Shown one piece after another: positions 3,817 through 41,094 of a DNA stretch of 42,520 bases. Location of the stretch: positions 1 through 42,520 of the IMG/VR virus record IMGVR_UViG_3300043395_002316; one strand, given 5' to 3'. The translations under genes and the position numbers were made by a program. Below the pieces are notes generated by a model, which was not told the DNA's origin, made no database searches, and was given only the letters and a program-made list of their open reading frames with translations. Within the stretch, counting starts at the first letter, position 1. Each line of letters opens with the position of its first letter. Source of the stretch: a virus.

Positions 3817-5097
3817 TTAAAGAGTATTACAAACTCCACCAGCAAAAAATTGACCACCACTAAAATATCCATAAGTTACACCATCAGAGAATATACCACT
3901 ATCATTAAACGGAGACCCATCAAAATTATAATAATATCTACCACTTATCAATTGAGACCATTGGTTTGAATATACAGTACCCCAAAAACTACCATATTGT
4001 GCATTAGTACATGCACTACCATCACTACCTGGGTCACCCATAGCAATTGCTATGTTATAATTCCAACTAGCAGGAGGTGGAGTATAATCCGGTGTAGGTG
4101 TAGGTGGTACATAATCTGGCGTAGGTGGTACATAATCCGGCGTAGGTGTAGGTGCGGTATAACAATATATTTCACCAGTACCTTTTGATAATCCAGCACC
4201 TGTATCTGTATTATAAACATACACATTATATCCACCCGCATTATTAGCTACACCTGTAAATGTATAGTAATTATATCCGCCGGTTGATGTAGTTGCGTAA
4301 CTAGATGGTGGACCACTTTGAATACTATATCCAACTTTATAATTTGATGAATTACCACCTGCAATATTTGTAATAATAATTCTACCACCACCATCATATC
4401 CGCCACCACCACAATCAATAGAAACATCAAATGTTATTGGGGCTATATACGTTGGCGTAGGCACCGTTGGTGTAGGTACTGCAGGTGGATAATAAGTTGG
4501 GGTAGTCGGTGGTGTATAGGTTGGAACTATTGGAGTTGGTGTGACTGTACAAACTGCACATGCTGCAGTAGGTGATGCACTTATAGTTCCTTGCCCATCT
4601 CTTCTAAATCTACGAGTATAACGAGTTCCATTACCATCTGTCCAAGCAGCATAAAATGGTGAAGTATCACCCAAATCATTAGTCACTACAAATGGTAAAT
4701 CTAATATTTTTGTAGCATCACATAAGGTAGTTCCATACACCGTAACCGTAATATTACCATAATCTCCACCATCACAAGCACTTTGTGCATCTGATGCAGC
4801 TATTGAAATAATTATTTGTGTTTCCGGTGTTGTAGGAGTTGGAGCAGTAGGTGGATAATATGTTGGAGTTGTTGGAACTTCGGGCGTATATATTGGTGTA
4901 TATGTTGGTACTACCGGAGTGGGAGTTGGTGTACCACTATATCCATAAAATTCTGACATTACATCTGGTATATCAAATTTAACAAGACCCGTTGCAGCTT
5001 TAGCAATAACATTGTACTGCCTCAATGAATTTGAAGTAGTACTCAACGCAGCTTTAATATCTGACATTTTTATAGGGCCTGAAGTTGGTAATGGCAT
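3817..5097 (-). CDS. Proline/threonine-rich modular tail adhesin
   Basis: A 426-residue structural protein that is probably part of the tail fibre tip. Residues 1-55 match the short phage tail module starting LPTSGPIKMSDI and ending in EFYGYSG, a module frequent in T4-like marine phage tail proteins. Three globular modules follow, each preceded by a Pro/Thr linker (residues 56-92, 186-220 and 314-343, each with 13 prolines). Modules one and three share an SAC...YG...TVY pattern and carry Cys pairs, resembling Cys/Tyr-rich modules seen in flavobacterial phage tails. The linker DNA is itself repetitive, for example around 4080-4160. Its start overlaps the stop of the giant fibre gene by one base (TAATG), so the two are translationally coupled and probably assemble together. 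The linkers are plausible targets of the neighbouring prolyl hydroxylase and glycosyltransferases (inference). Confidence 0.7.
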   Translation of the reverse strand: MPLPTSGPIKMSDIKAALSTTSNSLRQYNVIAKAATGLVKFDIPDVMSEFYGYSGTPTPTPVVPTYTPIYTPEVPTTPTYYPPTAPTPTTPETQIIISIAASDAQSACDGGDYGNITVTVYGTTLCDATKILDLPFVVTNDLGDTSPFYAAWTDGNGTRYTRRFRRDGQGTISASPTAACAVCTVTPTPIVPTYTPPTTPTYYPPAVPTPTVPTPTYIAPITFDVSIDCGGGGYDGGGRIIITNIAGGNSSNYKVGYSIQSGPPSSYATTSTGGYNYYTFTGVANNAGGYNVYVYNTDTGAGLSKGTGEIYCYTAPTPTPDYVPPTPDYVPPTPTPDYTPPPASWNYNIAIAMGDPGSDGSACTNAQYGSFWGTVYSNQWSQLISGRYYYNFDGSPFNDSGIFSDGVTYGYFSGGQFFAGGVCNTL

Positions 5098-8000
5098 TAT
5101 TTATTCCTTTTTAATTCCTCAATTTCCGATTTTAATTCTTTTATACTCTCAATAAGAAGTGCAACAATTTTATCATATTTAACTGCTTTATATCCATTAT
5201 CACGAGTAGCTACCAATTGTGGTAATACTTGTTCAACTTCTTGTGCTATTACACCAACATCATTACCTTTATTTGTATGTATATCTTCATAACCCTCTTT
5301 CCAATCATAAGTATATCCATTCAATAAAGATACTTTTTCAAGGGGATTTTGAATTCTTAACAAATTATCTTTTAATCTTAAATCGGATGAAGTATTTGCA
5401 GTAACATCGCCGGTTACCGTCAATCCACCACCGATTTTTACAAAATCAGTCTCATTTGCACGCTTTACTTCCAAATATTTAGAAGTATCATAGACAACTT
5501 GAAAACCACCTGCACACAATTCAGTTTTTGATACTGGGACTGATGCTGCAATTGAACTCAATAATGGTGTTCTCATATAAACACCAAAATCGGCAGGACC
5601 TGGTAAATTAGGTGCACTTAATATAGCAGCAGCATATATATCTTTTAATACCGGTTTTATGTAATATGTTCCAGCTTCTAATGTTACAGTTGTACTTAAT
5701 GTAAATGTGCCATAAGATGCATTCATCGTATATGTGCCGATTTGATGTAAAGTATTTACATATGAGTCTGGTTGAATTACATATTGGGTACCTGATGGTG
5801 TAATTAATCTAAATCCATATGAATAAGACCACTCCATTCGTTCCAAATATTTACCATGAATATCATCACCCGATGCAAAAAATTGATTACTACCGCCCGA
5901 TACTATTGCAGAAATTGTACAAGTTGAACCTATTAATGCATTTCCACTACTAATTGTAAAATTAGCTTCATCTACACCTAAATTTATATTAGAATTGGTA
6001 TATGAATATGTAGTACCCGAATGATTATCATACCATTCATAATTTGCAGGAACATTATAGTTGACAATATTAGTTTGTGAAGGGGTGATACTTCCGGCAG
6101 ATTTATCCGATAGTGTAGTATTTGCATTTACATCAACCACAACCGATGTACCATTATATAATTCCATTGCGGGCCTTGCAGCAGCCAATTGTAATTTTTT
6201 AGTACCAACCGATGCATATAAATTTGAACCATTTAAAACCCAATCACCAATAAATCCTTCCGTTGCAGTAATACGACCGGAAACATCCACATTAGCTGCG
6301 GTTAATTTTCCGTTCGAATTAATATTTGAATAAGTTGCACCACTTCCAATCGTTAAACTGCCACCGGTTAAAGTTAAATTTGTAGCAATAACTGCACCAG
6401 CAGGTGTTACTCTAAATGGAGCATCGGCAAAAGTTGCATTCCCCAAGTAAAGTCCGTTTGAATCTGCTTTAAAAATACTATTACCACTACCTATGGAAAT
6501 AATGCCAGCACTATTTAATACAGCACTACCACCGGTTAATGTTGTTGGCCCTAAAGTCCATCCACCAATTGTACCGGTTGCTGCTGAAATATCTCCTGCA
6601 AATGAACCTCCTGCTGCATTTAAATTACCACTAAAAGTACCACTACCATTAATTGTAAGATTTGAACCATCCCACAATAAAGAATTTGTTGCACTTTTTA
6701 AAGATAATTTATATTTTGTACCACCGTCATTTACTGAGCCTATAAAGATACCATTTACATTATATCCCTGTGAACCGACACTTGAACTTTGACCAATTGA
6801 AATATATGGATAAGCAGTTCCACCATTTAATGTTATATTAGCAGATGACACTCCACCATTATTATTTGTACCAACATTTAAAGTATTTTGTACATATGAG
6901 TCCTGAAATAAACCAATTTTAGCTGCTACAAAGAAATCCTGTGTACCTAACGATGTCCAAGCAGTAGATGATGGTTGTGATGGTGAACCATCTGCAGTAT
7001 TTGTTGCTACTGATGTATGAGAACGAGTAGCAGCATAATAAGTATCATATGGGGCAGTACCTGTCGAACTCCATAAAACTACATCTCGTCTACCAGTACC
7101 ATCTAACAATCCATCAGAGTATTGATATGCTCGACCCGATTGCCAAACTCCAGTATGAACAACACCAGGACCAGTTACACCATCTAATGTTACACTTATA
7201 ACATGACTTTGTGCAATTGCAGATGAAGTTATTCCTGCTGAAGTTTTATATTCAACATTAAATGTTATTGTTTCACCTGCCGTAGATGTTGGTGTTTTTG
7301 GTGTTATTGTACCATTATTATTATTTGTACTTCCAGCAGAAACACCTGAAATTTTAAATGTACTATTTGATGCAAGTGTAGATGAATATGTATAGGCATT
7401 CCCATTTTCAGTTACCGAAATGGTAATATTAGATGGTGATGCGTAAACTCCAGCAGTACTGCGTTTTATAGTTTGTGAGGATGGATTTAGTGTTATCACA
7501 ACTCCATTAGCACCATTCGTACCATTCGTACCATTCGTGCCATTCGTGCCATTCGTACCATTCGTGCCATTTTGTCCAACACTAACTTTTGTTGCAGTTA
7601 CAACAATAGTTTTTGTTTGTCCACCAGTACCCTCACTATCAGTATGTGTAATAATTAAAGATGCAGATGCTTCAGATTTTGTAGAATCTATAACCGAACC
7701 TGTCATATTTAATTGATTTCCAGTTATAGTTGGATTTGTAGAAAATCCACCATATGTACCAGACATGGATGTAAATCTATTCGTACTACCTTCCAATGCA
7801 GTGACAATCACATTACTTAATGTACCACTTTGTACACCAGATGAATTTGCAGTTACTGATTGCGCCTGTGGGGTTGCCGAAACAACAATAGTTGGAGTTG
7901 CTTTTTTAGCTTTTGTATAAGTTACAACTTTTGTTATATCGGTTGTATCACCTGCACCATCTTTATATCGTACCAATAATGATAACGAACCACTATCTGC

Positions 8001-10598
8001 ATCTAATCGTGTAATACCATAAGTTGCATCATCCGGTGTTGTATCATTTGCAATACAATTTGTTTCTGTTGCTGAAATGATATCCCATCTATTATTTGTA
8101 GTTAATCCTTCTTGTCTACTGATATCCTCACCACCAACTTTTACACTTACCGAACCACTTGTCAACACAAATGAACCACTCTCAACAAATCCAGTTGATT
8201 TAGCAGGAAGAGTTGCGTTTTCATTAGTAAGAGTTACTGATAATCCATCTAATATTTTGATTGGTGTAACTTTGATACTATCGGTATATTCAATACCATA
8301 ATCATCCGATGATGTAAAATGATATGTTGCAGAACCACTTAAATAATCAAATGATGAACCTGCAAGTGTATATGTAGAAACTCCAGTTGTAGGGTCAGTA
8401 TTTACAAATGTTAAACTTGCAGCAGTACCAACTTCACTTTCGGAATTTATAGTTATATTAGGGTTTAATGTACCTAAATTTTTTCGTTTAACATCAAAAG
8501 TTATTGATTGATTCGATGGATTAATTGATAAATTTGTAGCTTTATAAATAAATTGATTAGCAGTTGAAGATACAAATATACCTGGAGCATTATCACCATC
8601 TTCTAATCTATAAATTGTTTCATATTCTACTAAACCATCTGCAGATGCAGTATAAGTAATAAATCCAACTCTAAATAAATTAGATGTTTCGGTATCCAAT
8701 GAACCACTAAATTCATCAATTTGAACAACAAATCCATTATTAGATGAATCATGCGGTGCACCTGGATATTCAACACCACCCAATGCTAAATAATCAGCTT
8801 CACTTATGTAACTACCTGTTATATCATAAACCGAACGACCATATGTTATATCACCAACAATATTTTGACGAGTGGTTGAAAATCCGATTTGTTGAAAATG
8901 TGGATTTGCATGAGAGCCGGTAATAAATCTGAATGCGTTTCTATCAGATTGTATTGTTAAAATTTTAGTTGATGTTGGGTAATCATTACCACCATCAAAT
9001 GTAGCAGTTGAAAATACATCTACCGGAATATAATTGTTATTTATATCATAAAATTCAAATTTGAAATCAAATGTTTCAGTATTAATTTTACGCGGTATAT
9101 CTTGTATTAATACAAATTCATCAGGCGAAAATGAAGTTTCTTGTGCATTTTTTAAAGATACATTTGAAATATACCAATCAGAGCCACTTATATCAAATAC
9201 CAACTTTGCGTTAGAAGATGAAATTGGATTGGCAATTATATTTTGAGAAACTGTTTGACGAGTTTTGTAAATATCAGAACCACTAACAGTCAAAAATGTT
9301 TGTTGATAATCAGATGAACTTAAATACGCTTTTATGTATTCTGACCCATTTATTGAACCACTTAATAAGGTTTTAAATTCTAATGTGTATTCTACATCTT
9401 TTGAAATAACAAATGATTCCGATGTAATTAATTGCTGAATTCCACCCAAAGATGTATTATAATCAGTTTTTATTGAAGATTGTAGTATATCCACATTTAC
9501 CGAAACTGGATGTGCATCCGATGATGTTATCCAATAAGTTGATAAATTTGAATCAGTAAAATTACCATACGAAATTTGAGTATCGTTTGAAACGGTAACA
9601 TCTCTTAACAATTCAGTAGATTCTAATTTTGATTCTTGTACAAATTGATAATCGGTTACCTCATTACGAGATTTACGAAATACTTTTACTCTAGCAACAT
9701 CCCCAACGAATGTTTTAAGATTTGAAATATCAATTTTTGCAAACGAACCGGTAAGTGCAGAATCAGACACTGTCTGACCTTCAGTCCATTCAAATGATGT
9801 AGTGTATGGTGTTGATGGAAAATTTTGTACAATATTATTAACCGAATATGGTATATCAACTAAAACCTCTTTATTGTTCAATACCTCTTTTACAACCGGA
9901 GAATATCCAAGTGATGGAATTGTTATGGTATTATCATCTACCGAACCTGTCCAAAAAGAACCATCGGTTATTTTCAATTTATAAACCGTTCCTGCAGTCC
10001 AATTGGTAAGATTAGAACCCACTGCAGGTTGAAGAGCAATACCCTCTACCGAACCACTTTGAGTTACCGATGGGATAACCTTTGAAAATATGGGTTTAAC
10101 CAATTCTGATATGGAAACCGATGGTCTTCTATAAAAACGAACAGAATCCTCATTAGAGAGGTTTCTGTTGATTTTAAAGGTTCTTTCCCACTTAACATTA
10201 TAAACACCCTTCCAAACCTCTGGAACGGGTAAACGAGTACCATTTTTATCTATATACTCTTTTAACTCCCCCAATACCGTAATTTTACCGATTCCGATGG
10301 GAGTATCTGGATATACATGAACTGATATAAGAGTTGAAAGACCTTCATAATATTCCGGCGTACCATTACCCGGTTCGAAATATATTGGATTACCATCGAC
10401 ATCTAAAATTTCGATTTTTACTTCAGTTGTTTCTTTTAAAAAGTCAGAACCCTCAATTAAGAACCCATTTTTACCTCCGGTGAATGTTTCCTTAAATTCG
10501 GTGATTCTAAAAAAATCCGAATTAGGATTCGTATCAACTATAAAAGTTTGATAATTTGAAAGATTTAAAAATGGTGAGTATGATTTGATTATTGCCAT
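5097..10598 (-). CDS. Giant tail fibre with C-terminal S74 chaperone
   Basis: An 1833-residue long tail fibre or tailspike. The last roughly 100 residues are an intramolecular chaperone of the peptidase S74 family: SSDLRLKDNL carries the Ser-Lys catalytic pair, followed by GVIAQEVEQVLPQLV, the KAVKYDKIVALLIE segment and a C-terminal coiled coil. In this family the domain trimerises the fibre and then cuts itself off. Around residues 1007-1033 lies a short collagen-like Gly-Thr-Asn repeat. Much of the rest is Ser/Thr/Gly-rich beta structure with Ig-like repeats (roughly 600-1000) and TGxSLxIxSG-type beta-helix segments (roughly 1250-1500). The N-terminal ~150 residues probably attach to the baseplate. 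A clear AGGAG ribosome site precedes the ATG by 7 nt, with a late-promoter-like decamer further upstream. It heads the fibre operon. Fibre identity is secure; the receptor is unknown. Confidence 0.88.
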   Translation of the reverse strand: MAIIKSYSPFLNLSNYQTFIVDTNPNSDFFRITEFKETFTGGKNGFLIEGSDFLKETTEVKIEILDVDGNPIYFEPGNGTPEYYEGLSTLISVHVYPDTPIGIGKITVLGELKEYIDKNGTRLPVPEVWKGVYNVKWERTFKINRNLSNEDSVRFYRRPSVSISELVKPIFSKVIPSVTQSGSVEGIALQPAVGSNLTNWTAGTVYKLKITDGSFWTGSVDDNTITIPSLGYSPVVKEVLNNKEVLVDIPYSVNNIVQNFPSTPYTTSFEWTEGQTVSDSALTGSFAKIDISNLKTFVGDVARVKVFRKSRNEVTDYQFVQESKLESTELLRDVTVSNDTQISYGNFTDSNLSTYWITSSDAHPVSVNVDILQSSIKTDYNTSLGGIQQLITSESFVISKDVEYTLEFKTLLSGSINGSEYIKAYLSSSDYQQTFLTVSGSDIYKTRQTVSQNIIANPISSSNAKLVFDISGSDWYISNVSLKNAQETSFSPDEFVLIQDIPRKINTETFDFKFEFYDINNNYIPVDVFSTATFDGGNDYPTSTKILTIQSDRNAFRFITGSHANPHFQQIGFSTTRQNIVGDITYGRSVYDITGSYISEADYLALGGVEYPGAPHDSSNNGFVVQIDEFSGSLDTETSNLFRVGFITYTASADGLVEYETIYRLEDGDNAPGIFVSSTANQFIYKATNLSINPSNQSITFDVKRKNLGTLNPNITINSESEVGTAASLTFVNTDPTTGVSTYTLAGSSFDYLSGSATYHFTSSDDYGIEYTDSIKVTPIKILDGLSVTLTNENATLPAKSTGFVESGSFVLTSGSVSVKVGGEDISRQEGLTTNNRWDIISATETNCIANDTTPDDATYGITRLDADSGSLSLLVRYKDGAGDTTDITKVVTYTKAKKATPTIVVSATPQAQSVTANSSGVQSGTLSNVIVTALEGSTNRFTSMSGTYGGFSTNPTITGNQLNMTGSVIDSTKSEASASLIITHTDSEGTGGQTKTIVVTATKVSVGQNGTNGTNGTNGTNGTNGTNGANGVVITLNPSSQTIKRSTAGVYASPSNITISVTENGNAYTYSSTLASNSTFKISGVSAGSTNNNNGTITPKTPTSTAGETITFNVEYKTSAGITSSAIAQSHVISVTLDGVTGPGVVHTGVWQSGRAYQYSDGLLDGTGRRDVVLWSSTGTAPYDTYYAATRSHTSVATNTADGSPSQPSSTAWTSLGTQDFFVAAKIGLFQDSYVQNTLNVGTNNNGGVSSANITLNGGTAYPYISIGQSSSVGSQGYNVNGIFIGSVNDGGTKYKLSLKSATNSLLWDGSNLTINGSGTFSGNLNAAGGSFAGDISAATGTIGGWTLGPTTLTGGSAVLNSAGIISIGSGNSIFKADSNGLYLGNATFADAPFRVTPAGAVIATNLTLTGGSLTIGSGATYSNINSNGKLTAANVDVSGRITATEGFIGDWVLNGSNLYASVGTKKLQLAAARPAMELYNGTSVVVDVNANTTLSDKSAGSITPSQTNIVNYNVPANYEWYDNHSGTTYSYTNSNINLGVDEANFTISSGNALIGSTCTISAIVSGGSNQFFASGDDIHGKYLERMEWSYSYGFRLITPSGTQYVIQPDSYVNTLHQIGTYTMNASYGTFTLSTTVTLEAGTYYIKPVLKDIYAAAILSAPNLPGPADFGVYMRTPLLSSIAASVPVSKTELCAGGFQVVYDTSKYLEVKRANETDFVKIGGGLTVTGDVTANTSSDLRLKDNLLRIQNPLEKVSLLNGYTYDWKEGYEDIHTNKGNDVGVIAQEVEQVLPQLVATRDNGYKAVKYDKIVALLIESIKELKSEIEELKRNK
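7512..7574. repeat. 9-bp tandem repeat encoding a collagen-like Gly-Thr-Asn tract
   Basis: Six nearly identical 9-bp units (accattcgt or gccattcgt on the plus strand) run from 7512 to 7565, with a degenerate seventh unit. Read on the minus strand they encode Gly-Thr-Asn triplets in the tail fibre. The period is a multiple of three, so gain or loss of units would keep the frame and change only fibre length. Confidence 0.85.
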
Positions 10599-10681: not shown

Positions 10682-10849
10682 ATGGAAAAACAACAATATA
10701 CAACAATTCAAATAAAAAAAGAAACCCACATTCTCTTACAAGATTATTGTAAGGAACATGGGTTTAAATTAAGTGGTCTGGTAGAGAATTTGATTAAACA
10801 ACGAGTTAATCAACCTAAACCTACAAATGTACTAAAGGTTAGAACTTAA
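10682..10849 (+). CDS. Small ribbon-helix-helix (Arc/MetJ-type) DNA-binding protein
   Basis: A 55-residue open reading frame, the only convincing plus-strand gene in the window. The sequence has the Arc/MetJ-type ribbon-helix-helix plan: a beta strand YTTIQIKKET (residues 6-15), helix A up to about residue 26, a Gly-Phe turn, and helix B (SGLVENLIKQRV, 31-42), followed by a short basic tail. Such proteins dimerise, and the paired strands enter the DNA major groove, usually as repressors. It is transcribed divergently from the tail fibre and convergently with the SbcD-SbcC fusion, and its last 11 bases overlap the end of that gene. Upstream DNA is A-rich with no strong Shine-Dalgarno. It fills a gap that would otherwise be empty, and its codon pattern reads as genuine protein. 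Target unknown; nearby promoters are obvious candidates. Confidence 0.72.
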   Translation: MEKQQYTTIQIKKETHILLQDYCKEHGFKLSGLVENLIKQRVNQPKPTNVLKVRT

Positions 10850-13800
10850 CCTGTGAGAATCCATTTATTTTTTTAATCTCTACTAAATTATCTACTACAT
10901 CTCTCATTGAATCAATATGAGAAATAATCATAACAAAATCGAATTGTGTCTTCAAATAGGTAAATAACATAAATAGGGATTGTAAATTCTCACTATCTAA
11001 TGTACCAAACCCTTCATCGATTACAAGGAAATTAGGACGAGGTAGATTACAAACATTGATTAGAGCAACTCTAATTGCAAGTCCTGATATAAATCTCTCC
11101 ATACCACTACACATCTCCAATGACCATCTTTGATTGCCATATACAAGGTATGCATTGATGTTTTTACCATCCATCTCTAATTGCATTCCAAACTCAACAA
11201 TTTGTGCAAGGATGTTGTTTACCTCACCTTCAATCATTGGAAGTGCCTTTTCAATCAATTCGTATGAAACACCATCTTTACTCAAAGAATTCAAATAATA
11301 TTCAAATAATTTGGAATGTTCTTCCAATTCTTTAACTTCGTTTATTCTACTTTCAATCGTTTCTTTTTGGTTTTGAAGTGCCGAAATTTTACCATTGTAT
11401 TTTAAAATCTCACCATTGATGGTTTTTAATTCATCTTTAACTGAATTAAGATTATTACGAACTTCGGTAATTTCTTCCCTAATTTCTTTATTTTTCTTAA
11501 TTTGTTCTTCATTTTTATAATACTCATCAATCAATTGTTGTTGTTGAGTAATTTGAGATTCTATTCTAACTTCTTCGGTTTCTTGGGTTGAAAGTTGATT
11601 ATGCAGTTGAGAGAGTTCTCTATCAACCTTATCTTCTTTTTCCTTAGCTTCTAACAAATTCTTCCAATCTGATTCGTATAATGAGTATTGGTTTATTTTT
11701 TCTTCTGCGATTTCATTTATACGAATTGCATCACCCCATTGTTCTAATACATCTGATAATTGGTCTTCTACATCTTTTTTGGATTCCAAAATAGTTTTAG
11801 AATTATCCATACAAATTTCACAATTTGGATTATATTTGTGAGATTCTAAATGTTCTTTCTTATCTTTTAAAGAATCTATTTTAATATCTAATTTTTCTAA
11901 TTCATGTTTAGATGTATTGAATTCCTTTCTACTAAATGTTAATAACTCAATTTTATCTTCTAAATCTTCTTCATCAAATCCATCGATAATTTCTTCCAAA
12001 GTTACTTGTAATTCTTCTCTTTGAGTAATTTTTTCTTGTATATTGCGTTTCGTAGTTTTTATTTCTTCTAACTTATCTTCAAGAGTTTTTAATCTCTTTT
12101 GCAATTCATCAATAGAAACTCCACTATCTGCATTTAATTTAACAATTTTCTCATTTAATTTAATAATTTGTTTATTATATCCCTCTTCTTTATCCTTCAA
12201 CTCATTTTGTTGAATATCCAATAATTTGTACTCCGTCTTATCAGCCTTTAATTGGGTTTGGATGTCGGCGAGTTTAGTCGTAAAATCATCACTCTTGAAT
12301 TTTTTGATAAGTGTTGCATTATCTCTATTCTCTTCTGCTGCAAGAGTGTATAATTTATCAAAAATATCTACTCCAATGAATTGAGAAAGAATTTCTTTTC
12401 TCTCACTTTGTGATTTATCAATGAATAGGGCGTTGTTTCCTTGTAAGGAAAGTGCAGTTAATACAAAATCCTCAAACTTACCCAAATACTTTTCGATGTT
12501 TTTATTTGTATCTCTTCTTTGTTCTCCATTTAGAGATTCAACTACTCCACCATCCTCTTTCCAGAAATTTACATTGACCGTAAGATTAGTTCCCTTTCGA
12601 GTCCATTTTGCCATACGCTCGATGTAGTAATCCACACCATCAATCTCAAAGTTAAACTTACAATAGAAATTATCTTTTTGATTATTTAGAATATTTTTAG
12701 AGGATGTAGTACGAGATGTTTTATCAAAGATACAAAATGCAAGTGCATCAAAAAGAGATGATTTACCTGATGCATTTGGTGCAAAGACACCCATTATACC
12801 CTGTGCTCTATCAAATCTTACTAAATTCCCTTCACCATAAGAAAACATATTTGAAAACTCTAATGTTTTAGGTGTCCAAAGAATATTCTCCGCAAGGTCA
12901 TCTGAATTGATTTTGGTATTTAATTCTTTATTGATGTCTGCAATCTTATCCAACTCATCATCTGTAAGTAGGTATTGTCTTTCTAAATAATCTCTAATTA
13001 GAGAATTTTGAAAAGTTTCATCCTTTACATTACCAACGATGTTTTTATTAAGTTTGGTATTGGTTTTTAATTGACCAATTGTATCGGTACGAGTTACGGT
13101 AACCTCATCTACATTAAACATCTTCTTTAACTCCGTAATATTGAGTTTCATATCCGATGGTTCGGTTGCAGTAAATCGTAATCTTAAACGTGGATACTTT
13201 GGTAATTTAGTATCAACTTCATCATATACCCATTGTGGGATTTGTCCATTAACTACATCGATTGTTAGGAATCCATAATCATTATGAATATGATGTTCGG
13301 TAAAAGTACGAGTATTTACATCCCAAAGTAAATAACCGTGGTCTTCCAACATTTCTCCGTGATTTTGTTGAACCATTGAACCCGCATATGCAATATGCTC
13401 ATACCCCGGTCCGAATGTTTGGCGTTTGTGAATATCACCCAACAATACCATATCAAACCCATCAAACATATTAACATTGAATGAGTTAGATGAAACAACA
13501 TAACCAATATCAGTTAAGGCTTTGTTGATTGGTCCGTGAAAAAGACAGATTTTGTTTTCACCTTTAATATCTTTCGCCAACGGCCAATTTTCCTTTTTAT
13601 CCAATATGGAATAAACGACAAAAGTAAGATTGTGAAAATTATAAACACCAGTATCACGCAAATAATGTATGCGAGGATTGTTAAGATTATCAATAATTGG
13701 CGTAAGAACATCTAATCGGTGTGAGTTATTTAAATTACAATCGTGATTACCTGTAATAAGAAATGTTTCTCTTAATTTTGAACATTCAGTTAAGAACCAA

Positions 13801-13997
13801 CTAATTTCTTGTACAAGTTCAGGTGACATTTCAGTTTTGGCATGAGCAATATCACCGCCAATATAAATAATAGAATCTTCGATTTTATCATCTTTTACTT
13901 GTTGAAGAAACTTATCAAATATCAAACGATATTCTTTATGTCTTTGTAAATTTCGGATATGTAAATCCGCTAAGTGGTAAATTTTGTTAATAACCAT
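10839..13997 (-). CDS. SbcD-SbcC (gp47-gp46, Mre11-Rad50) single-chain nuclease-ATPase
   Basis: A 1052-residue protein joining both subunits of the Mre11-Rad50/SbcCD complex, which processes DNA ends for recombination. Residues 1 to about 340 are the metallophosphoesterase nuclease, with motifs Asp11-x-His13, GGD49, GNHD (83-86), His154 in FHGP, and GDIH (187-190). This length is close to T4 gp47 (339 aa). The remainder is the Rad50/gp46 ATPase: Walker A APNASGKSS near residue 408, long coiled coils either side of a zinc hook CEIC near 725, then the SGMERF signature region and the Walker B VIDEGFG near 992. In T4, E. coli and most organisms the two parts are separate genes. No internal stop or weak linker suggests a broken frame. 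The start overlaps the stop of the upstream gene (TAATG). Expected role: replication-linked recombination and host DNA breakdown. Confidence 0.93.
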   Translation of the reverse strand: MVINKIYHLADLHIRNLQRHKEYRLIFDKFLQQVKDDKIEDSIIYIGGDIAHAKTEMSPELVQEISWFLTECSKLRETFLITGNHDCNLNNSHRLDVLTPIIDNLNNPRIHYLRDTGVYNFHNLTFVVYSILDKKENWPLAKDIKGENKICLFHGPINKALTDIGYVVSSNSFNVNMFDGFDMVLLGDIHKRQTFGPGYEHIAYAGSMVQQNHGEMLEDHGYLLWDVNTRTFTEHHIHNDYGFLTIDVVNGQIPQWVYDEVDTKLPKYPRLRLRFTATEPSDMKLNITELKKMFNVDEVTVTRTDTIGQLKTNTKLNKNIVGNVKDETFQNSLIRDYLERQYLLTDDELDKIADINKELNTKINSDDLAENILWTPKTLEFSNMFSYGEGNLVRFDRAQGIMGVFAPNASGKSSLFDALAFCIFDKTSRTTSSKNILNNQKDNFYCKFNFEIDGVDYYIERMAKWTRKGTNLTVNVNFWKEDGGVVESLNGEQRRDTNKNIEKYLGKFEDFVLTALSLQGNNALFIDKSQSERKEILSQFIGVDIFDKLYTLAAEENRDNATLIKKFKSDDFTTKLADIQTQLKADKTEYKLLDIQQNELKDKEEGYNKQIIKLNEKIVKLNADSGVSIDELQKRLKTLEDKLEEIKTTKRNIQEKITQREELQVTLEEIIDGFDEEDLEDKIELLTFSRKEFNTSKHELEKLDIKIDSLKDKKEHLESHKYNPNCEICMDNSKTILESKKDVEDQLSDVLEQWGDAIRINEIAEEKINQYSLYESDWKNLLEAKEKEDKVDRELSQLHNQLSTQETEEVRIESQITQQQQLIDEYYKNEEQIKKNKEIREEITEVRNNLNSVKDELKTINGEILKYNGKISALQNQKETIESRINEVKELEEHSKLFEYYLNSLSKDGVSYELIEKALPMIEGEVNNILAQIVEFGMQLEMDGKNINAYLVYGNQRWSLEMCSGMERFISGLAIRVALINVCNLPRPNFLVIDEGFGTLDSENLQSLFMLFTYLKTQFDFVMIISHIDSMRDVVDNLVEIKKINGFSQVKF

Positions 13998-15091
13998 TAT
14001 TTGTAATTGTTTCGGTTGAATATGAATTTTTGTCTTCCTAATAATTGATGATTAAAAAGGAATTTATCTTTATTATACTCAAAGTATTCGTATAATTGAG
14101 AATAACTCATATTATGTATTATATTTAAGTTTGATTTATATTGGTTTACTATATCAACATAATTTGTTTTAAGAGATAGGTCAAATATATCATCTGCCAT
14201 CCAAAATCCTAATTGTTTTAAATAAAAATTTATACCACTACTACCTAAAACTAATGGTATATTCATTGATATAAATGGATTCCATGTTTTTTCACTTAAA
14301 TGAATAGTATCGGTTGAAACTGATGTTTCACAAATTATACTAACATACGAATTGAGTGTGGATGGGAATGGTGGGTATTCCACATTAACGGCACCATTAC
14401 AACTTTTTTCAAAAGTGGTATCTAAAATTATAGGTAAATTTGAATCTCTAAATTCTTTCAATTTATCAGAGATTTCAGAATCATCATACGCTTTTGAAAA
14501 TCCACTGTATCCCACATATAAATCGGTATTTAATCCGATATCATATATGTGTTTCAATGTTAATAATCTTTCTACTTTATCAACTCCTACTATAAAATTA
14601 CCTTTCTTATGTCTCATTACATGTAAAAATGGACTAAATAATTCGGGTATACTATTAAAATAGGATTGACTTGCAGGCCTATATCTAAAATAATTAAAAT
14701 TTACATCAGCATCATCTAATGTAAATCTATTTGAAAATATAGTGTAATATTCAGTATTTGAATATGGTTGAAAATTATCAGTATCTACTATAAAAAATTT
14801 AATCTTATATTGTTTTGCAAGTTCTTCAATGGAATTAAAAAATAACTCCTGATTCCAATATGGAAAATATTGAATATCACAAAATACATAATCTCCCTCT
14901 TTTGGGAGTATAATATTTAGATGTTGTTTTAAATGTGATGGAAATTCTTCTTGTTTTATATGATAATGTTCGTAAATTAACTTATTATCACATTCATAAT
15001 AATTTAATTCTTCTCCTTCATTAAAATGAATTAAATTATACCACGGAATCCAACTTCCTCTGTTTATATGATGTGGAATTATATGAATCAT
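13997..15091 (-). CDS. Putative glycosyltransferase-like protein
   Basis: A 364-residue protein without a secure family. Its C-terminal half contains ICETSVSTDTIHLSEKTWN near residue 260, then a Pro-Leu-Val-Leu-Gly strand and LKQLGFW. This E...SEKT...P..LxG...L...GF pattern recurs in phage and giant-virus proteins that resemble fucosyltransferase/GT10-like or GT-B enzymes, where it would bind the sugar nucleotide. The N-terminal half is aromatic-rich with a Rossmann-like strand YVFCDIQYFPYW. It is oddly placed between two DNA-replication genes, overlapping the primase stop by 4 nt (ATGA) and the SbcD-SbcC start by one base, so translation of all three is coupled. A link to DNA glucosylation is conceivable from that context, but no T4 alpha/beta-glucosyltransferase motif is visible. 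The function is tentative. Confidence 0.45.
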   Translation of the reverse strand: MIHIIPHHINRGSWIPWYNLIHFNEGEELNYYECDNKLIYEHYHIKQEEFPSHLKQHLNIILPKEGDYVFCDIQYFPYWNQELFFNSIEELAKQYKIKFFIVDTDNFQPYSNTEYYTIFSNRFTLDDADVNFNYFRYRPASQSYFNSIPELFSPFLHVMRHKKGNFIVGVDKVERLLTLKHIYDIGLNTDLYVGYSGFSKAYDDSEISDKLKEFRDSNLPIILDTTFEKSCNGAVNVEYPPFPSTLNSYVSIICETSVSTDTIHLSEKTWNPFISMNIPLVLGSSGINFYLKQLGFWMADDIFDLSLKTNYVDIVNQYKSNLNIIHNMSYSQLYEYFEYNKDKFLFNHQLLGRQKFIFNRNNYK

Positions 15092-16029
15092 AAATTAAAT
15101 AATTTTTGTTTTATCACATCACTAAAATCAGTTTCCTTTGATTCTTTCAAAATTTCATTTACTTTTGAAAATCCCATTTCACCCGCATCTTTATCTGATG
15201 GAATTATATTTCTTACCGTTATACCTTGATTACCTAATTGAACTACATAATTTAATGCCTGTTGTTGTGCATCTTTATCTAATAAAATATTAATAGTTCG
15301 AACTCCTTTATCATATATATTTTCCATTAATTTTTTTGGAATAAATTTACCCAATATTGGAATTGCATTGCGTTTAACTGCCATTGCATCAAACGCACCT
15401 TCCACAATTGTAATTGGTTCATTCCAATTTATTTGGTTTTCAAACATAATAACATTCTTTGAAACCGGTGGGTTTTTGTATTTATATGGTTCATCTTCAA
15501 ATACCGAACGAGCTATAAAATAATTGAGTTTATTATTTGAATCATATGATGGAATAATAATTCTACCATTATACAATCCACCATCACAATAACCAATATT
15601 ATATCGTATAATATCTTCACGGGTTATTCCACGAACAGTTGCATAATGCATTACTTTTCTGAATGTTGGATTTACACCCTTCGGTTCTTTTAATAAAGTT
15701 TTAAATTCAGCAGGTAATCGTAATTCAATCTTTTCATCTTCCGAATCAGTTGAATATACAATATAATCATCACCATAAATTTCATAAAGTTTTTGTAATT
15801 TTCTAGCATCTACATGAAGTTTTCTCAATAACGAAGAAATTCGTTTTCCTTTTGCATCACATACCCAACAATGCCATTGTTGAGTTTCTAAATTAATTTG
15901 GAGTTTCTTTTTATGATGATGACAAAATGGGCAATGATGTGCTTGTTCATCTCCTTTTAAGGAAGAACCAGTACCCAATGTTTCATCTAAAATACCAATT
16001 ACAATAATTCTATCTCTTTGTGAGAGCAT
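15088..16029 (-). CDS. DNA primase (zinc finger plus TOPRIM)
   Basis: A 313-residue DnaG-type primase that makes RNA primers for lagging-strand synthesis; T4 gp61 is the functional counterpart (342 aa). The N-terminal zinc-binding domain has Cys33-x2-Cys36 and Cys54-x2-Cys57 in a CPFC...CWVC arrangement. The TOPRIM domain carries the catalytic Glu210 in VEGAFDAMAV and the Asp251-x-Asp253 metal pair in LLDKDAQQQ. All key residues are present. No helicase fusion is seen, so a separate helicase gene must lie elsewhere. It is the first gene after a 124-bp intergenic region with a palindrome and a host-type promoter candidate, and it is followed by two translationally coupled genes. It is probably expressed early or middle, unlike the flanking structural blocks. 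Confidence 0.9.
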   Translation of the reverse strand: MLSQRDRIIVIGILDETLGTGSSLKGDEQAHHCPFCHHHKKKLQINLETQQWHCWVCDAKGKRISSLLRKLHVDARKLQKLYEIYGDDYIVYSTDSEDEKIELRLPAEFKTLLKEPKGVNPTFRKVMHYATVRGITREDIIRYNIGYCDGGLYNGRIIIPSYDSNNKLNYFIARSVFEDEPYKYKNPPVSKNVIMFENQINWNEPITIVEGAFDAMAVKRNAIPILGKFIPKKLMENIYDKGVRTINILLDKDAQQQALNYVVQLGNQGITVRNIIPSDKDAGEMGFSKVNEILKESKETDFSDVIKQKLFNL

Positions 16030-16153: not shown

Positions 16154-16600
16154 TTATTCGGAGATTTCCAAATCTTTTCTGAAAAACTTACCTAATAAGT
16201 TATCATTTAATGCTCTATCATCTGCTAATACATTATGAGCAAATTGTTCCTGCAATTCGTAATATGTAAGTGATTTTGTAGATGAACAAAATCGTAAGAT
16301 TCGTAATTCTAATTGGTCGTTATCGGAATCCTTAAACCAATCTTGTACTATTTTATTTGATGAACGATATGTTTTCCAATCCGATTCTTTTGTTATCATC
16401 TCATATCGTTTCATTCGTTTATCGGTTAAAGCAGCAATTTCTTTTTTACCAAAATTTCGCTTTCTAATTGATGCAACATTTTTCTTTCCGATATAATATT
16501 GACCAGTTTTTCCGTTTGTAATTTTATAAATAAATCCAATAGTGCCTTCTGGCATATCTGATAATTCTGTAATGTAACTTCCGTTATATATCCAACTCAT
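16154..16600 (-). CDS. GIY-YIG endonuclease (SegE-like)
   Basis: A GIY-YIG nuclease-domain protein of about 148 residues. Counted from the second Met (16600), it begins MSWIYNG and then shows GFIYKITNG...YYIGKKN, the paired GIY and YIG strands of the fold, followed by basic residues, an SDWKTYRSSN segment, and a conserved ELQEQFAHNVL helix that would hold the catalytic Glu. The domain organisation matches the SegE-like homing nucleases of T4-related phages. A longer form starting at 16621 is open. I prefer 16600 because family members usually begin close to the WIYNG strand and this reduces overlap with the sulfotransferase gene to 17 nt. Neither start has a strong ribosome site. It could be a free-standing homing enzyme or a repair/recombination nuclease. 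Confidence 0.75.
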   Translation of the reverse strand: MSWIYNGSYITELSDMPEGTIGFIYKITNGKTGQYYIGKKNVASIRKRNFGKKEIAALTDKRMKRYEMITKESDWKTYRSSNKIVQDWFKDSDNDQLELRILRFCSSTKSLTYYELQEQFAHNVLADDRALNDNLLGKFFRKDLEISE

Positions 16601-17156
16601 AGTTAAAAATTTTGAAATCATTTTGATATTTTTCTCTAACCCAGTCTTTCATCCAATCTTCATTATAATATTGTTTATATAATTTGTGAGTGTTTAAATT
16701 TGGATGTTTTTCCCACATTTTATTTCGATTTAAATGCGGTATTCGATTTTCTTTTATTTCAATTTTATTTAAAATATAATTTAAATCGTAATTAAGATTT
16801 TCGTATTTACCAACATATGAAATTTTTTTAGTTGGTGTATTTCCGTGATTTATATAATATTCTTGTGAAAAAAATAAAAAATCTAATGGGTCAATTGATT
16901 TTATGAAATTTGAAAATAAATTTGCTTTACCTTCTCGTTTTCTATGTTCAAACCAAGAAGCTAAACGGGTATATGGATTTCTAACAAATGTAAATATAAA
17001 ATATCCATCTACATTTTTTAATTCATTAAGTGTACCATGAGTAGTTATTTGTTCTGTCTCCGGTACACTTAATAAAATTTGAGATATTGAATTACCCGCG
17101 GTTTTGGGTATATGAATGTAAGCCCATTTATTTGGACGGTTAATGAGTAACCCCAC
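16584..17156 (-). CDS. Sulfotransferase (Sulfotransfer_2-like)
   Basis: A 190-residue cytosolic sulfotransferase-like enzyme that would move sulfate from PAPS to a carbohydrate or tyrosine. The 5'-phosphosulfate loop is IPKTAGNSI with Lys18; a His-Gly-Thr segment follows at residue 40; and the 3'-phosphate site is FVRNPYTRLAS with Arg59 and Ser67. The C-terminus ends in the family-typical Asp-Phe-x-x-Phe-x-Tyr. There is no transmembrane anchor, unlike eukaryotic Golgi members. It lies 12 nt after a small unknown gene and overlaps the GIY-YIG gene. Together with several glycosyltransferases in this window it suggests sulfated glycans on the virion or the host surface, though the acceptor is unknown. 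Confidence 0.82.
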   Translation of the reverse strand: MGLLINRPNKWAYIHIPKTAGNSISQILLSVPETEQITTHGTLNELKNVDGYFIFTFVRNPYTRLASWFEHRKREGKANLFSNFIKSIDPLDFLFFSQEYYINHGNTPTKKISYVGKYENLNYDLNYILNKIEIKENRIPHLNRNKMWEKHPNLNTHKLYKQYYNEDWMKDWVREKYQNDFKIFNYELDI

Positions 17157-39378: not shown

Positions 39379-41094
39379 TTATTTTATTTTTTTCTTAATA
39401 ATATAGTTGTGTATTACTAATGTATCCATTTCGCAATTTAAAAATGTTTGAATTGCAGTTTCGGGGTCTAATACCATTGTTTGGTCTTTTAGATTAAATG
39501 AAGTATTCAACACAATTGGATATCCATTATCAATTTGTAATTGATTTAATAATTTATAGATACGAGTATGTTGTCTATTATTAAGAGTTTGAATACGAGC
39601 AGAACCATCAACATGAGTAATAGCAGGTAAATTTTTTCTATGCTCTTCTTTAACCTTAACAACTTGATTCATATATGGTACAAGATGTTTGTAATCAAAA
39701 TATTTTAGTCGTTCTTCTTCTTTTACAATTGGAGCAAAAGGTCTAAATCCTTCTCGTTTTTTAATTACACGATTTACCCTTGCTTTCATTTGAGGGTCTC
39801 TTGGGTTAGCAAGAATAGAACGATTGCCCAATGCTCGAGAACCAAATTCCATTCTTCCCTCAAACCAACCAATGACATTTCCATCAGTAATTTCTCTACT
39901 GATAATTGGAATAATTTCAGAGTGATTTTTATACTCATACCAAACATCATTTTTGTATTTTTCTAAAATTTGTATTACTTCGTCATTTGAATATGAAGGA
40001 CCTAAATATGGATTGGTATTTGTAATTCGTTTTTTATTATTTAATTCATTATACCAATAATATAATCCGGCACCGATTGCAGAACCTGCATCAGATGGTG
40101 CGGGAGGAATCCACAATCCTTTAAATGGAGTTAAATCAGTAATCTTCCCATTTGCAGTTCCATTATATGCACATCCACCACTTAAACATAGATTATTAGC
40201 AGGTCTTAATGCAATTGCACGATTTAATAACCTAAAGAAATATTTTTCATATATTATTTGAACTGTTGCTGCTAAATCTTTATGTTCTTGAGTTAATTCA
40301 TCTTCTGGTAATCTATTTAAAAGTTCTAAATGTGCACCCAATTTTACATTAAACATCATCTCATCTGACCAATCAAAGTCAAACATTTCCATATTCAACT
40401 CGAATCCACCATCTTCGATAGGTTGAATAATATCATCAAACTTTTTTAAATAAGTATATGGATTACCATATGGTGCAAGACCCATTACTTTATATTCACC
40501 TTCATTCGGTTTGAATCCTAAAAACGCAGTAAATGCAGAATAAAACATTCCCAACGAATGTGGAAAATCAATTGTTTGTAATTTTATAATACGATTTTCT
40601 TCACCATATGCAATAACGGCAGATTCCCATTCACCAACCCCATCAACAGAAACAATCATTGCTCTTTCGTAAGGAGATGTGTAATAAGAATATGCTAAAT
40701 GTGAAAGGTGATGTTCTGAATAAAATATGTTTGAATTTGGAAACATATTTTTAATTTCCGATTCTACATTTTTATAATCTTTTTTATTTCTATGTAGAAT
40801 TTGTTGTCTATGAATTTCTCTAAAAATTCCACCTCTTTTAGTTGATTGTGAAATTCTATCTAATTTAACTGCAGGGTTTTCATAAAAACAAACGGTATCG
40901 ATATTATCTGCCGTAATACCATTTTCTTCCAATAACCAATTTATAGTATTGATTGGAAATGCAGAATCGTGTTTAACGCCAGTAAAGCGTTCTTCTTCTA
41001 CGGCACCAATTACTTCACCATTTTTAATTAAAGCTGCTGCAGAATCATGATATCCACAGCTAATTCCTAATATATAACAATTTTTATTCATCAT
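39379..41094 (-). CDS. Carbamoyltransferase (NodU/CmcH family)
   Basis: A 571-residue full-length member of the O-carbamoyltransferase family (NodU, CmcH, TobZ), which activates carbamoyl phosphate with ATP and transfers the carbamoyl group to a hydroxyl. The N-terminal YrdC/Kae1-like part opens ILGISCGYHDSAAAL and has the metal site HHLSH near residue 130. Further motifs are SVDGVGEW, LCLSGGCAYNGTANG and DAGSAIGAG. The C-terminal domain contains EGRMEFGSRALGNRSIL and KKREGFRPFAPIV. All look intact. Phage members are thought to carbamoylate modified bases or sugars; no base-modification partner lies within this window. The gene overlaps gp55 by 11 nt and ends in a terminator. Substrates could be a hydroxymethylated base or virion glycans. 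Confidence 0.93.
   Translation of the reverse strand: MMNKNCYILGISCGYHDSAAALIKNGEVIGAVEEERFTGVKHDSAFPINTINWLLEENGITADNIDTVCFYENPAVKLDRISQSTKRGGIFREIHRQQILHRNKKDYKNVESEIKNMFPNSNIFYSEHHLSHLAYSYYTSPYERAMIVSVDGVGEWESAVIAYGEENRIIKLQTIDFPHSLGMFYSAFTAFLGFKPNEGEYKVMGLAPYGNPYTYLKKFDDIIQPIEDGGFELNMEMFDFDWSDEMMFNVKLGAHLELLNRLPEDELTQEHKDLAATVQIIYEKYFFRLLNRAIALRPANNLCLSGGCAYNGTANGKITDLTPFKGLWIPPAPSDAGSAIGAGLYYWYNELNNKKRITNTNPYLGPSYSNDEVIQILEKYKNDVWYEYKNHSEIIPIISREITDGNVIGWFEGRMEFGSRALGNRSILANPRDPQMKARVNRVIKKREGFRPFAPIVKEEERLKYFDYKHLVPYMNQVVKVKEEHRKNLPAITHVDGSARIQTLNNRQHTRIYKLLNQLQIDNGYPIVLNTSFNLKDQTMVLDPETAIQTFLNCEMDTLVIHNYIIKKKIK

Follow-up and report, generated by a model that had tools for sequence, protein, structure and literature searches.

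Proteins in which Mre11 and Rad50 are joined in a single chain were described in 2011, when Mimivirus R555 was reported together with twelve others, including examples from a Bacillus phage, plasmids, bacteria and eukaryotes (Yoshida, Claverie & Ogata, 2011; PMC3175470). The same study placed the fusions in several lineages and used the T. maritima structure to predict a linker of 9–12 residues between the two parts. R555-like sequences were found to be common in aquatic metagenomes and were argued to be phage-borne, some of the scaffolds also carrying phage primases (PMC3175470). In bacteriophage T4 the two enzymes are encoded apart, as gp47 and gp46, with two small ORFs in between. Split pairs were also found in cyanophage S-CAM9 and in Bacillus, Staphylococcus, Vibrio, Moorella and Xanthomonas phages. 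These pairs and the SbcD/SbcC pair of E. coli are the same two enzymes as those joined in the protein described here, but they are made from two genes; most of their nuclease motifs have GHxH, and their signatures are of the SxGE form.

The window (the whole 42,520-nucleotide stretch of DNA that was analysed, IMG/VR record IMGVR_UViG_3300043395_002316) encodes a protein with both enzymes in one chain. Its parts, and the primase gene upstream of it, are as follows.

10839..13997, minus strand: fused SbcD-SbcC (Mre11/Rad50) gene, ATG start, 1052 aa, complete
13083..13997, minus strand: Mre11/SbcD phosphoesterase and capping domain, residues 1–305, from Pfam Metallophos and the model
12918..13017, minus strand: helix-loop-helix (HLH) at the place of the Rad50-binding HLH of Mre11, residues 327–360, helices from the model
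12876..12917, minus strand: linker from the HLH to the first Rad50 strand, residues 361–374, 14 aa
12282..12875, minus strand: N-terminal ATPase lobe, residues 375–572, with the P-loop at 406–414 and the Q-loop region at 517–519; AAA_23
11307..12281, minus strand: coiled coil with CxxC zinc hook, residues 573–897, long helices in the model
10842..11306, minus strand: C-terminal ATPase lobe, residues 898–1052, from sequence evidence
15088..16029, minus strand: DnaG-like primase gene, upstream of the fusion, phrog_47 DNA primase (2e-51)

The ORF reading of the window gives one uninterrupted frame for the fusion, whose ATG shares one base with the stop codon of the upstream gene. The SbcD nuclease is followed by the HLH, the linker and the SbcC ATPase with its CxxC hook, and an Mre11-like nuclease ahead of a Rad50-like ATPase in one frame is the defining trait of Mre11/Rad50 fusions. 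Both halves were matched by HMM search. In Pfam, Metallophos (residues 5–191) and AAA_23 (379–643) scored above the curated cut-offs and SMC_N (777–1043) below its own, while PHROG returned the SbcD family over residues 4–354 (2.4e-29) and the SbcC family over 284–1051 (2.7e-59). The protein also matches Rad50 and SbcC among PDB sequences. Sequence families, alignments, the AlphaFold2 model and the relatives thus agree with the initial annotation of this gene as a single-chain SbcD-SbcC fusion. That it belongs to a kind of fusion already described in 2011 is well supported (PMC3175470), which leaves its novelty much below what that annotation had implied.

Relatives were collected from IMG/VR, where a scan with the fusion protein gave 31 loci and a scan with an alignment gave at least 596 confirmed stretches, the best 80 of which were kept. 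The 117 loci considered include some contigs twice; conservation is reported for 78 distinct full-length sequences.

The phosphoesterase fold and metal-binding motifs of Mre11/SbcD are present in the nuclease half, the motifs lying exactly where they had first been read (D11-x-H13, GGD49, GNHD at 83–86 and GDIH at 187–190). The putative metal ligands are D11, H13, D49, N84, H154, D188 and H190. Invariance across all 78 sequences extends to D11, D49, H52, N84, H85, H154, D188 and H190 and covers 11 ligands and further motif residues in total, and H13 is kept in 76. One ligand is Asp for His: Asp188 occupies the place of the first His in the last nuclease motif, which is GHxH in most homologues. 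AlphaFold2 (single chain, 40-sequence alignment; mean pLDDT 72.9, pTM 0.43) modelled the nuclease and capping domain well, with Z of 20–24 against SbcD/Mre11 crystal structures; the Foldseek/VIA rows mostly cover residues 1–315, and the ATPase lobes were barely probed by structure.

In the same model the two HLH helices span residues 327–341 and 346–360 and the first Rad50 strand spans 375–382, and the VIA alignment rows for 3tho and 6s6v reach residues 362–363. The 14-residue linker is near the 9–12 residues predicted by Yoshida et al. (PMC3175470), and its length is 13–15 aa in every one of the 78 sequences. The capping and HLH regions are both kept, with a short linker ahead of Rad50, as expected of a fusion protein.

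The second half has the bipartite ABC ATPase (P-loop and Walker B) and the CxxC-hook coiled coil of Rad50/SbcC. All of the ATPase motifs listed in the initial annotation are there: the P-loop APNASGKSS at 406–414, CEIC at 726–729, SGME at 964–967 and LVIDEG with D994 and E995. N408, G411, K412, S413, S517 and Q519 of the N-terminal lobe are invariant in the 78 sequences, as are both cysteines of the zinc hook (window positions 11811–11822). The C-terminal lobe holds SGME, Walker B with the catalytic Glu (D994, E995), the D-loop residue D1001 and H1027, with SGME, D994 and E995 again invariant in 78/78. This lobe was poorly modelled (pLDDT about 30–55), and its assignment consequently depends on the sequence. 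Three motifs deviate from textbook form: the last nuclease motif has Asp188, Walker A has Ala406 in place of its first Gly, and the ABC signature reads SGME. The signature keeps its position but has one Gly replaced by Met, giving SGME where others have SGGE or SEGE and the textbook form is LSGGE/Q. With Asp188 for a metal-binding His and SGME for LSGGE/Q, activity may differ.

The window protein resembles R555 and R555-like proteins in its domain order, Mre11 HLH, short linker, aquatic phage setting and the presence of a primase on the same scaffolds. It also shares with R555 the motif GDxxH in place of GDxxD and an Asp at the position of Pfu Mre11 His206 (H52 and D188 in the window, both in 78/78), although GDxxH alone is not specific to the R555-like subgroup. 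R555 is longer, at 1351 aa, with a longer coiled coil, and its closeness was judged from the residues quoted in PMC3175470 only. Among deposited phages, Microcystis phage Mel-JY01 encodes a full-length fusion of 1066 aa (WWT39521.1) with 38% identity to the window protein. It has a primase upstream, separated from the fusion by a 57-aa ORF, and is annotated as ‘AAA domain containing protein’ rather than as a fusion. Tenacibaculum phages pT24 and PTm1, Chryseobacterium phage MA9V-1, Sphingomonas phage PAU and the 735-kb phage LR756501 likewise have both halves in one chain, with the SGM signature in most, and group with the fused sequences in the tree described below. They differ from the window protein in length (1202–1326 aa), in identity (about 25% or less) and in their gene surroundings.

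Taken together, these features make it highly probable that the window protein is a phage single-chain Mre11/Rad50 (SbcD/SbcC) nuclease-ATPase, for which we infer M2R2-like pairing and a part in end processing. Its most likely job would be that of gp46/gp47, i.e., the processing of ends for recombination-dependent replication, carried out as a homodimer equivalent to M2R2. A pair of chains would make up a counterpart of the M2R2 head, in which each HLH, through the short linker, docks in cis on the root of the coiled coil in the same chain. ATP-driven closure would then gate access of DNA to the nuclease, and the zinc hooks would join the coiled coils. Such a complex could trim or open DNA ends and so feed RecA in recombination-dependent replication and repair, as T4 gp46/gp47 do. 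The earlier suggestion that a covalent link would constrain how the predicted M2R2 complex assembles is a reasonable one.

The gene surroundings bear on this proposed role. Of the 111 loci with enough sequence, 108 have a DnaG-like primase upstream of the fusion, at a distance of no more than 200 nt in 65. In the window, the primase and fusion genes are placed inside a tail/baseplate region and not in a replication cluster. Eight larger relatives each gave one strong SbcC-family match (full-length phrog_77), located at the fusion; their extra SbcC-family matches were weak (1.5e-5 and 5e-4, over about 100–120 positions). The four relatives of 252–288 kb have no strong SbcC match other than the fusion, and each of them encodes RecA; one smaller record (<252 kb) has RecA as a partial match. 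None of the eight records is rated complete, so a separate second split pair, or RecA missing from the smaller contigs, may occur.

Several other genes of the window, all on the minus strand, were assigned. Between primase and fusion, 13997–15091 encodes a 364-aa protein with relatives in 31 related loci, many of them directly upstream of the fusion; it gave no Pfam or PHROG match, and its C-terminal part looks glycosyltransferase-like by eye only. Adjoining the primase is a SegE-like GIY-YIG homing endonuclease (16154–16621; Pfam 5.5e-24), with similar ORFs in 84 loci; a sulfotransferase-family protein is encoded at 16584–17156 (Pfam Sulfotransfer_2, 2.2e-14), with similar ORFs in 46. Directly downstream of the fusion is an 1833-aa tail-fibre-like protein with a C-terminal Peptidase_S74 chaperone domain (5097–10598), and a complete carbamoyltransferase is encoded at 39379–41094 (Pfam N and C domains, E <1e-60; PHROG Nol-like carbamoyltransferase).

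The position of the fusion gene among late structural genes, along with the annotation of T4 gp46/gp47 as also required for host-DNA degradation, raises the alternative that degrading host DNA or countering host defence, rather than replication, is the main task of the protein. We consider this unlikely, given that the conserved neighbour is a primase and that the large relatives carry RecA, both of which suit replication and recombination; moreover, the two kinds of task are not mutually exclusive.

It is also quite improbable that the chain is made fused but acts as two proteins, through proteolysis or through an internal start that yields extra SbcC. Met384, near the start region of SbcC, is found in 77 of the 78 sequences and a GGAG occurs at codon 369–370. 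However, Met384 is part of the first Rad50 strand-loop (FSNMFSYG), and translation beginning at this codon would yield a protein lacking the first Rad50 strand; the GGAG is about 40 nt ahead of the Met384 ATG, beyond normal spacing, and a start codon is absent where split SbcC proteins begin. No plausible site for an internal start producing a separate SbcC was found on inspection of the sequence and the 78-sequence alignment.

Finally, a sequencing or assembly error that merged two neighbouring genes has a negligible probability: split D and C genes do adjoin in many phages (9 bp apart in XaC1), so that the loss of one stop could fuse them, but such an error is ruled out, as is chance, by a full-length, uninterrupted fusion in 102 of the 117 related loci, from separate assemblies, to which are added the fused frames in the Mel-JY01, pT24, PTm1, MA9V-1 and PAU genomes and the conserved linker length. 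Of the remaining loci, 14 were cut by contig ends and the last carries an insert that breaks the gene; in none of the 117 is the fusion split into two plain genes. A stop and restart near residues 340–390, named at the outset as the observation that would speak against a fusion, occurs neither in the window nor in any of the 102 full-length relatives. The single-chain protein is real and is a fixed trait of an aquatic phage group that is abundant, and fused forms in deposited phages include the uncultured LR756508 and LR756501 in addition to the five genomes just named. In three relatives the D half was missed by phrog_100, but alignment of their frames shows full-length fusions, so the miss is no evidence of an absent D half.

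The interrupted locus is that of the 484-kb phage LR756508.1, in which a 305-aa ORF at 4671–5588 breaks the fused gene between the equivalents of window residues 193 and 199, in the region of the last nuclease motif. The insert has zinc-ribbon-like Cys pairs and a match to a TnsA-like endonuclease (Pfam 5.8e-6), and is probably a mobile intron or similar, although an Rfam search of it returned no intron family above threshold. An intein is not favoured, since an N-terminal intein Cys is missing from the tail of the first piece and the pieces do not share one frame with the insert.

Beyond phage records, a scan of cellular genomes gave four loci, one of them a short partial match. The other three are full-length fusions with 39–41% identity on MAG contigs of 11–20 kb, in bins assigned to Nitrosopelagicus, Chloroflexi and Gammaproteobacteria; these short contigs are probably phage contigs in the bins. 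A plasmid scan gave weak SbcC matches only, and at this sensitivity it did not pick up the Clostridium and Deferribacter plasmid fusions reported in 2011.

Whether the fusion arose once, as the initial annotation had asked, can be answered for part of its range. A tree was built from 24 fused and eight split sequences (661 columns), and a single branch with support of 99/99 separates all fused sequences from the split ones. The same branch was recovered with SH-aLRT values of 90 for the nuclease half and 93 for the ATPase half. The signature follows this division, with SGME in the fused sequences (SGMQ in PAU, GGME in MA9V-1) and SxGE in the split ones. Phage fusions sampled here form one group, a result limited by long branches, the small number of split sequences and the unrooted tree. 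The cases that Yoshida et al. reported from plasmids, bacteria, eukaryotes and a Bacillus phage are outside the tree, and support for a single origin thus extends to the sampled phages only. More speculatively, and with a low probability in our estimation, the sampled phage fusions may descend from one fusion event on a branch of their own, marked by SGME and Asp for His, in which linkage and altered signature co-evolved to give ATP gating unlike that of the split enzymes.

The known mechanism of Mre11/Rad50 is left unchanged by this finding. A natural fused Mre11/Rad50 that is rather short, at about 1050 residues, could nevertheless serve as a one-gene model for structural and single-molecule work, a convenience that stems from its fixed stoichiometry. 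Such fusions are now placed in identified phages, on 252–288 kb contigs with RecA and primase, in several isolates and in hundreds of IMG/VR contigs, which answers in part the question posed in 2011 of which aquatic viruses carry them.
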